From IMG/VR virus record IMGVR_UViG_3300027791_000137, positions 1 through 23,883 of that record: a stretch of 23,883 nt of DNA; one strand, written 5' to 3'. Made by a program: the position numbers and the translations under genes. Source of the DNA: a virus. Positions 1 through 23,862 of the stretch are shown piece after piece (positions within the stretch are counted from its first letter, which is position 1; each line of letters begins with the position of its first letter). The notes under the pieces are model-generated. The model saw only the letters and a program-made list of their open reading frames with translations. It did not search any database and had not been told where the DNA came from.

Positions 1-271
1 CAACTTTTCTGTTGCCAGGTAAGTTGCCAACCCCTACGTGCTTATTACTAAGCCGCTAATGCCATTTCTGGCGCTATATTTGCGTTTGCAATTATAAAGT
101 TCGTTCGCGATAACCGTGCTTACATCCGGGCAACTCCACTCTTCTACTAATCCGCCTGTCGATCCTAGTTCGCCCCCATCATAAGCACACTAACTGTGCA
201 ATGTGTTTATGGTGGAGGCGTCGGGTACTGCCCCCGAGTCCAGCTCGTCGTTTGAATTGCTTCAACGTTAC
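1..271 (-). ncRNA. ssrA: Permuted two-piece tmRNA, 3' end cut by window edge
   Basis: On the minus strand the acceptor piece comes first (about 271 to 210) and ends in CGCCTCC-A-CCA at 210. A 32-nt intervening segment (209-178) follows. The coding piece then starts at 177 with GGGGGCG, which pairs with CGCCTCC over all seven positions (one G-U). A T-arm (TCGGG/CCCGA with a 7-nt loop GGCAGTA) precedes the acceptor end, and the GGATCGACA motif near the coding-piece 5' end is tmRNA-like. The tag reading frame starts with GCA at 89-87 and encodes ANANIAPEMALAA, then TAG-TAA-TAA (50-42). The ALAA ending is the usual protease-recognised tag end. Downstream pseudoknot sequence runs off the window at base 1. 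The acceptor-first order is the circularly permuted form known from Alphaproteobacteria. tmRNA rescues stalled ribosomes with SmpB; no smpB gene is seen here, so host SmpB would be needed. The exact 5' end is inferred. Confidence 0.92.
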
Positions 272-276
272 AATAC

Positions 277-307
277 TATTTATAACATAGTTATGCCGCT
301 ATGTCAA
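277..307 (-). promoter_or_regulatory. Dual early/late promoter of the tmRNA
   Basis: The minus strand reads TTGACA (307-302), a 17-nt spacer, then TATAAA (284-279) preceded by an extended -10 TG. The same bases form a perfect T4 late box TATAAATA (284-277). Either polymerase form would start near 271-272, just before the acceptor piece. The -35 element lies inside the 3' end of the neighbouring gene, across its stop codon. Confidence 0.8.
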
Positions 308-596
308 GTTCTTTTTTTACTTTTTCTTTAGTTTTTGAGTTTGGATTTTTAAGTGGTTCAAGCCAAGTGTCAGCAATGTATGCTCTAGGACTGGGTCCGA
401 ACAAGCTCGAAAGGTCGTCTGCTTCAATCCACCAATAGTGATCTGTTACAGGACATTGACAAGGCAAAGTTCGAAACTCAAATTGGTCTCCAGCTTGGTG
501 CTTTCCAATATACTCTACTACTTTTACAACACGGCCGATGTTCTCTGGGCGTACTGAATACTTAATTTGGGCTAGATCGCCTTGTTTACATTTCAT
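291..596 (-). CDS. Conserved phage protein of unknown function, SH3/KOW-like
   Basis: A 101-residue soluble protein. The N-terminal part (residues 5-40: GDLAQI ... NIGRVVKVVEYIG) has the hydrophobic pattern of a small SH3/KOW-like beta barrel. A conserved-looking centre follows (CQCPVTDHYWWIEADDL, about residues 46-62), and the tail is lysine-rich (KTKEKVKKELD). I do not recognise a function. No clear Shine-Dalgarno sequence precedes the ATG. Its 3' end overlaps the -35 element of the tmRNA promoter, so the two are tightly packed. It diverges from the small plus-strand genes that follow. The reading frame is convincing from its composition and from the resemblance to proteins I recall in other phages, but the fold is a guess. 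Confidence 0.7.
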   Translation of the reverse strand: MKCKQGDLAQIKYSVRPENIGRVVKVVEYIGKHQAGDQFEFRTLPCQCPVTDHYWWIEADDLSSLFGPSPRAYIADTWLEPLKNPNSKTKEKVKKELDIAA

Positions 597-5567: not shown

Positions 5568-5589
5568 TAAAATACTCCTTTATCAGTAG

Positions 5590-5597
5590 TATTTATC
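5590..5597 (-). promoter_or_regulatory. Late promoter GATAAATA of the spike operon
   Basis: NATAAATA box with predicted transcription start near 5584, followed by AAAGGAG and the ATG at 5567. It drives the three genes down to 2780. Confidence 0.75.
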
Positions 5598-5924: not shown

Positions 5925-6191
5925 TTATTCTCCAATTGATTTAAAGTGATCTTCTAATTGTACATAACCACCCATATACTTACCCTTAAAGATAATCTGT
6001 GGTGCAGTTCTTGGTGGTGGAAGTTTGTTAATTTCAAACTCTTCCATCAGTTGCTGAACTGGAATGTCCTTACCGATAATCATTTCTACAAACGGAATGT
6101 TCTTACGTTTAAGTAAAGTCTTTGCCATTACACAAAAACTACAATTAGGCTTTGAATATACTATTGTTGTTTCGTTACTTGCTGTGTCCAT
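5925..6191 (-). CDS. nrdC: Glutaredoxin
   Basis: 88 residues with a glutaredoxin/thioredoxin fold. Strand IVYSKPNC contains the active-site C17-S-F-C20, the TAPQIIF segment carries the cis-proline, and GGYVQLEDH is the glutathione-binding GG motif. It would reduce the disulphide formed in the ribonucleotide reductase large subunit at each turnover, as phage NrdC-type proteins do. Its ATG overlaps the nrdB stop codon, so the two are translationally coupled. The symbol nrdC follows T4 usage; grx would be an equal name. Confidence 0.93.
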   Translation of the reverse strand: MDTASNETTIVYSKPNCSFCVMAKTLLKRKNIPFVEMIIGKDIPVQQLMEEFEINKLPPPRTAPQIIFKGKYMGGYVQLEDHFKSIGE

Positions 6192-21812: not shown

Positions 21813-21886
21813 GCGGGTGTTGTGTAATGGTAAGACCTTAGGTTTCCAACCTAAAGATAGGAGTTCGATTCTCCTCACCCGCTCCA
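21813..21886 (+). tRNA. trnG: tRNA-Gly (TCC)
   Basis: Acceptor GCGGGTG/CACCCGC, anticodon stem CTTAGG/CCTAAG with loop TTTCCAA, anticodon TCC, T-arm with TTCGATT. Discriminator T as in bacterial Gly tRNAs, and the CCA end is encoded. Confidence 0.97.
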
Positions 21887-21896
21887 TACTGTTGTC

Positions 21897-21972
21897 GCCG
21901 CAATAGCTCAGCTGGTAGAGCAACTGATTTGTAATCAGTAGGTCCGGGGTTCAAATCCTCGTTGCGGCACCA
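21897..21972 (+). tRNA. trnT: tRNA-Thr (TGT)
   Basis: Acceptor GCCGCAA/TTGCGGC, D-arm AGCTCAGCTGGTAGAGCA, anticodon stem ACTGA/TCAGT with loop TTTGTAA, anticodon TGT. T-loop TTCAAAT, discriminator A, CCA encoded. Ten bases after tRNA-Gly, same transcript. Confidence 0.97.
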
Positions 21973-22528: not shown

Positions 22529-23584
22529 ATGGGTGCAAGAAACCATAAGAACTGGCTGGCAAAGCCAACAGTTGAATCAATCAGTAGTGAATGCTACAGT
22601 AGTCATGAAATTTACGAACAAGAGATCGAAAAGATATTTTCTAAAGTTTGGATCCCTATCATTCATGAGAGTGAAATAAAGAATCCAGGAGACTACAGAG
22701 TATCTCAAATTGCATTTCGAAACATAGTTATAATCAATCACGGCGATCGTATTGGATGTTATATCAATCCTGGATTTAGAGGAGTAGCTGGTACAGTTGA
22801 TCCAACTACTGTAATTGAATCTAGAGAACTACATTCAGAAGTAAAATATGGTGGTATGGTATGGACAACACTAAACGATAATCCAACCATGGACGTAGAA
22901 CAATGGACAGACGGTGCATTTGATTGCATCACAACAGCTATTGATACAGAAAAACTAGAAGTGTTTCATTACCATAAAGCAATTATTCCAACAAACTATA
23001 AGTTATGGCATGATACCAACAGCGAGTTCTATCACGACTACATGCACTACTTCAATCGTATAACAGGTTTCAACGATGAATACTTTGCTCGGCCATGTAC
23101 AGGATTTGATAATGGACACGTAAACGTAGGTAGCTTTGAAGTGCAGTACGATAAGTTTGAAGGAGCAACTGATCGAGGAGCATTAAGTTTTCCAGGACTT
23201 CCACCCAACCAGTGGTACATGGTAGACTTGTTTCCAGGATACAACTTTAACCTACGTGGTAGTGCTTTCCGTAGTGACAGTATTACACCACTAGGTCCTA
23301 ATAGTGTGCTTATAGAGTTTAGAGGATATGGCTTGTTAAAAGACACACCCGAAGAACGTAAGCAACGTATAGATCATCACAATACTATATGGGGACCGTT
23401 CGGACGTAACCTGCATGAAGACCTATTAGGTGTAACAGGACAAGGAGTATCAATGGCACCTGGTACAGAGAAGAGACACATATTGCATGGCCGTCATGAA
23501 AACAATACTATACATGATGAAGTTGGTATGCGTCACTATTATGCCGAGTGGGGGAAATATTTAGACATTGACCCATATCAGTAA
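22529..23584 (+). CDS. Ring-hydroxylating oxygenase alpha-subunit homologue lacking the Rieske cluster
   Basis: 351 residues. The N-terminus follows Rieske oxygenase alpha subunits: IYEQEIEKIFSKVWIPIIHE, SEIKNPGDYRVSQI, then GCYIN. Where N-x-C-x-H-R-G and the second C-x2-H should follow, the protein has NPGFRGVAGTVDP and goes straight to ELHSEVKYGGMVWTTLN, so the 2Fe-2S site and roughly 45 residues are missing. The catalytic half is kept: TNYKLWHDTNSEFYHDYMH with H169 and H173, E166 where the bridging acid lies, and NLHEDLLGVTGQGVSM with D298 (or E297) as third iron ligand. Strong ribosome binding site and its own early promoter. Activity without a Rieske centre is unclear: it may use another donor, be a partner subunit, or bind substrate only. 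Substrate unknown. Confidence 0.85.
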   Translation: MGARNHKNWLAKPTVESISSECYSSHEIYEQEIEKIFSKVWIPIIHESEIKNPGDYRVSQIAFRNIVIINHGDRIGCYINPGFRGVAGTVDPTTVIESRELHSEVKYGGMVWTTLNDNPTMDVEQWTDGAFDCITTAIDTEKLEVFHYHKAIIPTNYKLWHDTNSEFYHDYMHYFNRITGFNDEYFARPCTGFDNGHVNVGSFEVQYDKFEGATDRGALSFPGLPPNQWYMVDLFPGYNFNLRGSAFRSDSITPLGPNSVLIEFRGYGLLKDTPEERKQRIDHHNTIWGPFGRNLHEDLLGVTGQGVSMAPGTEKRHILHGRHENNTIHDEVGMRHYYAEWGKYLDIDPYQ

Positions 23585-23787: not shown

Positions 23788-23862
23788 ATGGGTGTAGTGT
23801 TAATGGTAGCACGTGGGATTCCAAATCCTAAAGTTGCGGTTCGAGTCCGTACACCTATGCCA
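23788..23862 (+). tRNA. trnW: tRNA-Trp (CCA)
   Basis: Acceptor ATGGGTG/CACCTAT, D-arm GTGT/GCAC, anticodon stem TGGGA/TCCTA with loop TTCCAAA (anticodon CCA), T-arm TGCGG-TTCGAGT-CCGTA, discriminator G, CCA encoded. The A1-U72 pair and G73 fit bacterial tRNA-Trp. Confidence 0.95.

Follow-up and report, generated by a model that had tools for sequence, protein, structure and literature searches.

A complete circularly permuted tmRNA gene with a predicted hybrid promoter in a T4-like phage contig

Results

A two-piece tmRNA gene at the end of a T4-like phage contig

The window analysed here, an IMG/VR virus record of 23,883 bases, carries on its minus strand (311..2) a complete circularly permuted (two-piece) tmRNA gene. 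Our preferred reading, to which we give a probability of roughly 0.7, is that this gene encodes a functional tmRNA of a phage lineage, which is expressed from its own promoter and would use the SmpB, AlaRS, EF-Tu and proteases of the host to recycle stalled ribosomes during infection.

The genes of the window are of T4-like or general phage type and include ribonucleotide reductase subunits, an exonuclease, a PAAR/lysozyme-like protein and endonuclease VII. The closest NrdB relatives (about 62%) come from the Pelagibacter phages HTVC008M and Mosig; at the DNA level, the window otherwise shows little resemblance to reference phages. Together with the nature of the record, this NrdB affiliation agrees with the assignment to a T4-like phage made by a first-pass annotation of the sequence. 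The record is metagenome-derived, as would be expected if a bacterial or chimeric contig had been mis-binned as viral; however, the phage-type reductase subunits, exonuclease and PAAR/lysozyme-like protein, the recurrence of the tmRNA and its neighbouring open reading frame (ORF; phrog_2529) on many viral contigs, and a similar gene in an isolate phage refute this explanation in practice, and we consider it extremely improbable. The window also encodes, on the plus strand (21813-21972 and 23788-23862), tRNAs Gly(tcc), Thr(tgt) and Trp(cca).

The match to the alpha_tmRNA model RF01849 (cmscan) covers the full model (1-355/355), promoter region included, with 119.2 bits and E=2.3e-32 (gathering threshold 50), and the tmRNA_permuted model RF04321 matches at 271..48 (-) with 104.2 bits and E=1.1e-19 (cut-off 47 bits). 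The end of the contig coincides with the 3′ end of the gene. The first-pass annotation had suggested an RF01849 search with the 3′ flank included; a near-identical viral contig (IMGVR_UViG_3300027813_000262, hereafter L121) extends beyond position 1 of the window and scores 127.6 bits, so that only the last few bases of the flank are absent from the window. Beyond the 3′ end of the tmRNA, L121 presents a weak terminator-like hairpin (5582-5597). Both Rfam models and the tag frame described below thus bear out, for the minus strand, the earlier proposal of a two-piece permuted tmRNA with a tag of its own. ARAGORN missed the gene when run on the window and misses 50 of 121 similar viral stretches; published counts of phage tmRNAs are therefore probably too low.

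As in other permuted tmRNAs, the CCA-bearing acceptor piece precedes the coding piece. The acceptor piece (210..271 (-), delimited by the Rfam match and covariation, with a 5′ end probably at about 271) comprises a P2 strand, an alpha-type T-arm (237..221), the acceptor 3′ strand CGCCTCC (220..214), the discriminator A and CCA (212..210). It is followed by a 32-nt spacer (178..209 (-)) whose ends pair, extending the acceptor hairpin in the precursor, and which, by analogy with known two-piece tmRNAs, would be excised during maturation. The coding piece (1..177 (-)) contains the acceptor 5′ strand GGGGGCG (177..171), the D-loop region (167..155), the mRNA-like part and the conserved 3′ motif ACCTGGCAACAGAA (20..7). 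The acceptor strands are complementary and, as had been claimed, perfectly paired (7/7), provided that the G3·U70 wobble, an alanine-identity pair, is counted. This wobble is present in all genes with readable acceptor stems, whether phage (158/158) or bacterial (92/92). The predicted precursor fold is more stable than those of 200/200 dinucleotide shuffles (z=-3.87). Some relatives (L131:5400-5548, L148 about 6027-6134, L172, L173, L189 and L191) have a long spacer that accommodates a small ORF between the two pieces; its product is zinc-ribbon-like in L131, for instance, and a hydrophobic peptide in L148. Maturation of the tmRNA would sever such a nested protein gene.

Covariation between the two pieces

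We aligned 46 distinct relatives, rearranged to the standard (unpermuted) order, and predicted a consensus structure of 27 pairs, in which 98% of the cells are standard pairs. Seventeen of these pairs bridge the acceptor and coding pieces, and 97.3% of their cells are standard; the inter-piece paired fraction (0.973) exceeds the values obtained in 500 shuffles (at most 0.869) and in a slid control (at most 0.53). Since the structure was predicted from the same alignment, the paired percentage is biased upward, whereas the two-sided changes seen in 14 of the 17 inter-piece pairs are read directly in the sequences. Comparative data thus support a pairing between the two tmRNA pieces.

A complete tag with a phage style

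The tag frame (89..51 (-)) reads GCA AAC GCA AAT ATA GCG CCA GAA ATG GCA TTA GCG GCT, i.e., ANANIAPEMALAA, and presents a resume codon, a hydrophobic end terminating in Ala-Ala and three stop codons, TAG TAA TAA (42..50 (-)). Among 78 distinct phage tag readings, the C-terminus is AA in 66 and LAA in 57, and extraction errors account for several of the exceptions. Unusually long tags (29-31 aa) were observed in L033, L036, L060, L069 and L050, e.g., ANDNALSNVTFVDFSAPVTAVNEDFALAA and ANDNVAQPKFMKKRNTFARKVGFTKGMALAA.

A phage tmRNA could alternatively act as a decoy that competes for host SmpB and EF-Tu and dampens host trans-translation. A precedent is the mycobacteriophage DS6A, which resembles the window in encoding a tmRNA-like gene; according to PMC11915505, its tag-less RNA inhibits the endogenous tmRNA when present in E. 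coli, and a phage RNA that is transcribed from a strong promoter could outcompete that of the host. The DS6A gene lacks a tag frame, however, whereas the gene of the window is of the permuted form and, like its relatives, has kept the resume codon, G3·U70, the full tag with its stops and a C-terminus of the degradation type. A decoy would need none of these, which makes this explanation improbable.

The composition of the tag suggests another possibility, that the phage RNA is a retagging device whose PEMALAA-type tag changes the fate of proteins, for instance by evading host adaptors such as SspB or by favouring another protease. The PEM motif occurs in 10 of the 78 distinct phage readings vs none of 52 bacterial ones, and tags beginning with ANAN in seven phage and no bacterial readings of the same sample. 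However, the host sample is limited, the difference may reflect drift within one phage lineage, and the terminal -ALAA is an ordinary ClpX-type signal. Since the tag retains its -LAA end, ordinary proteolysis is the simplest expectation for tagged proteins; we regard retagging as unlikely, if somewhat less so than the decoy.

A putative composite promoter specific for phage tmRNAs

Upstream of the tmRNA (307..277 (-)), we identified a putative composite promoter, TTGACA-N17-TATAAATA (searched for as TTGAC(A)-N17-TATAAATA), which combines a sigma-70 type −35 element (302..307) with a −10 element (277..284, 17 nt further on) identical to the T4 late-promoter consensus. The TATAAATA element is found at the equivalent site in 92 of 119 unique phage tmRNA upstream regions, vs 0.4 in shuffled sequences; in 85 of these 92 regions the −35 spacing is 17 nt, and in 83 at least five of the six bases of TTGACA are matched. 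The complete composite motif precedes 79/119 phage tmRNAs vs 0/102 bacterial ones. In 1.27 Mb of phage loci, 104 copies lie near a tmRNA and nine elsewhere, a ratio that partly reflects the choice of loci for containing a tmRNA. Several of the nine copies away from a tmRNA sit directly after a phrog_2529 ORF. A role as general tRNA promoter was rejected, as ARAGORN detected no tRNA after the extra copies in L134, L137, L138, L139, L148 and L194. Taken alone, the TATAAATA element shows no enrichment in the window (4 found vs 2.3 expected).

TTGACA at a 17-nt spacing is a sigma-70 signal, and the late sigma factor of T4-type phages is gp55. Because the −35 element and spacing fit the host sigma-70 and the −10 element fits a gp55-type late promoter, early and late use is plausible, and the tmRNA may be transcribed in both phases from this hybrid promoter. 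We saw no gp55 gene in the 23.9-kb window, so that late use rests on the family to which the phage belongs; TATAAATA could also be merely a variant of the sigma-70 −10 element. The −35 box coincides with codons at the very end of the upstream ORF (L-D-I), so that the two overlap; homologues of this ORF frequently have a C-terminal Leu-Asp, which may be retained because of the promoter and not because of the protein.

A conserved upstream ORF

Viral contigs contain many homologues of the upstream ORF (596..291 (-), 101 aa, phrog_2529). In 42 of the 45 homologous loci that are non-redundant and evaluable, a permuted tmRNA lies downstream in the same orientation, at a distance of at most 50 nt in 24 and at most 300 nt in 36 of them; we considered a locus evaluable if it showed a tmRNA or if its downstream sequence was available for 2 kb or more, which somewhat favours presence. 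In the remaining phrog_2529 loci (L132, L135 and L153), the available downstream DNA contains no tmRNA. The AlphaFold model of the protein (pLDDT 85) predicts a small SH3/KOW-like beta-barrel, with weak matches in the PDB (best E 0.066). A relationship to SmpB was considered and rejected: the protein has no Pfam match at E<=10, and SmpB does not appear in the list of 50 PDB fold matches. As the fold matches are weak, it is only a guess that the protein might act with RNA or ribosomes. In one locus (L200), a close homologue of a 351-aa window ORF (22529-23584 (+)), which by eye resembles a Rieske-type dioxygenase, sits between the phrog_2529 ORF and the tmRNA.

SmpB itself was found in none of 32 records (fragments) of relative phages, while a control search was positive in 10 of 14 known genomes. 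This is in line with the earlier suggestion that the phage tmRNA requires the SmpB of its host; an SmpB gene located elsewhere in the phage genome, outside these fragments, is possible.

A phage-only lineage of tmRNAs

In a FastTree phylogeny, the tmRNA of the window belongs to a clade (support 0.79) without bacterial genes, which comprises 79 phage genes, itself included, plus that of the Methylophilales phage Melnitz. In a second, midpoint-rooted tree that also included alphaproteobacteria with small, AT-rich genomes, a phage-only grouping could be read for a 48-member clade around the window, which still contains no bacterial sequence. The small number of aligned positions, about 160, limits what these trees can show. 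A close host source was sought and rejected: there is no near copy in 385 alphaproteobacterial genomes, the best match being 82% over 84 nt vs 85% over the full length for a phage contig (L101), and the small AT-rich genomes fall outside the phage clade. The first-pass annotation had proposed capture from an alphaproteobacterial host; the position of the gene within a phage-only clade gives no support to a recent capture, and from the trees any capture looks old. Its premise that permuted tmRNA is a trait of Alphaproteobacteria does not hold either, as such genes also occur in betaproteobacteria and cyanobacteria (PMC9004378, PMC11915505).

These data also bear on whether the gene might be a functionless passenger, i.e., a host ssrA that was captured recently or is decaying, or what is left of an integration site. 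Host ssrA is indeed a known integration site, and fragments of it are found in prophages (PMC9004378). Against this, the gene is complete, with covarying pairs, a conserved place across diverged phages, a phage-specific promoter and a clade devoid of bacterial sequences, and we judge this explanation very improbable. Instead, the conservation of its promoter and gene neighbour, together with covariation, speaks for the phage tmRNA being selected for.

Comparison with known tmRNAs

Phage-encoded two-piece tmRNAs are not new. That of Melnitz was published in 2022, together with 53 two-piece tmRNAs detected by ARAGORN among phage genomes and permuted tmRNAs in 17 of 47 related contigs (PMC9004378), and the tmRNA database (PMC11915505) has 79 entries from bacteriophages, all forms taken together. 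Our exact pattern scan of viral contigs retrieved at least 119 permuted tmRNA loci. Given these published cases and loci, the tmRNA of the window is not a first. We did not find the promoter, the neighbour ORF and the phage-only lineage described in the consulted parts of the literature on phage tmRNAs.

Melnitz (EXVC043M, Kyanoviridae; PMC9004378) is, like the phage of the window, a T4-like marine phage with a permuted alpha-type tmRNA, and the two share the -ALAA tag end, the promoter TTGACA-N17-TATAAATA and, in the first tree, the same wide phage clade. They differ in the tag (ANDNYVPVDYALAA in Melnitz), in the spacer (142-nt vs 32-nt) and in the phrog_2529 ORF, which tblastn did not find in Melnitz. 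The Melnitz promoter was called early, and the consulted part of that paper reports no late-type element (PMC9004378); the composite motif is nevertheless present in the sequence of this isolate. A glutamine riboswitch is said to control the Melnitz tmRNA. In our Rfam scan, this motif (RF01739, 52.8 bits; 2856-2904 of L278, Melnitz-1) starts 8 nt past the tmRNA match and is thus more likely connected with the sequence further downstream than with the tmRNA, and none was detected in the window or in the L121 flank.

Alphaproteobacterial tmRNAs (RF01849) share with the window the order acceptor piece, spacer, coding piece, the T-arm GGCRGUACC, the D-loop UAGGAUCGAC, G3·U70, an AxxN...LAA-type tag and the 3′ motif CUGGCAACAGAA. 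In contrast, the sampled bacterial genes have neither the composite promoter (0/102) nor PEM or ANAN tags.

Discussion

The complete gene, its conserved pairs and its setting suggest how a functional phage tmRNA would operate. Transcription would be driven by TTGACA-N17-TATAAATA, possibly both early and late, and yield a precursor in which the acceptor stem runs on into the spacer hairpin. By extension from known two-piece tmRNAs, host tRNA-processing enzymes would remove the spacer, leaving the base-paired acceptor and coding pieces. The mature RNA would be charged by the host AlaRS via G3·U70 and delivered by host SmpB and EF-Tu to ribosomes stalled on broken messages. Translation would resume at GCA, append AANANIAPEMALAA, including the extra alanine of the charged tmRNA, and stop; ClpXP-type proteases of the host would then degrade the tagged product. 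The likely benefit to the phage would be to keep ribosomes free while mRNAs are cut or replaced in the infected cell and while the host ssrA is possibly lost with the chromosome.

A broader and more tentative proposal, which we hold with limited confidence, is that the phage-only lineage, its own tag style, a hybrid promoter found almost only here and the linked KOW-like protein, possibly acting on RNA or ribosomes, constitute a dedicated module of marine T4-like phages. If so, phage-run ribosome rescue would be a standing part of infection at all its stages. The promoter itself predicts that the tmRNA is transcribed throughout early and late infection.
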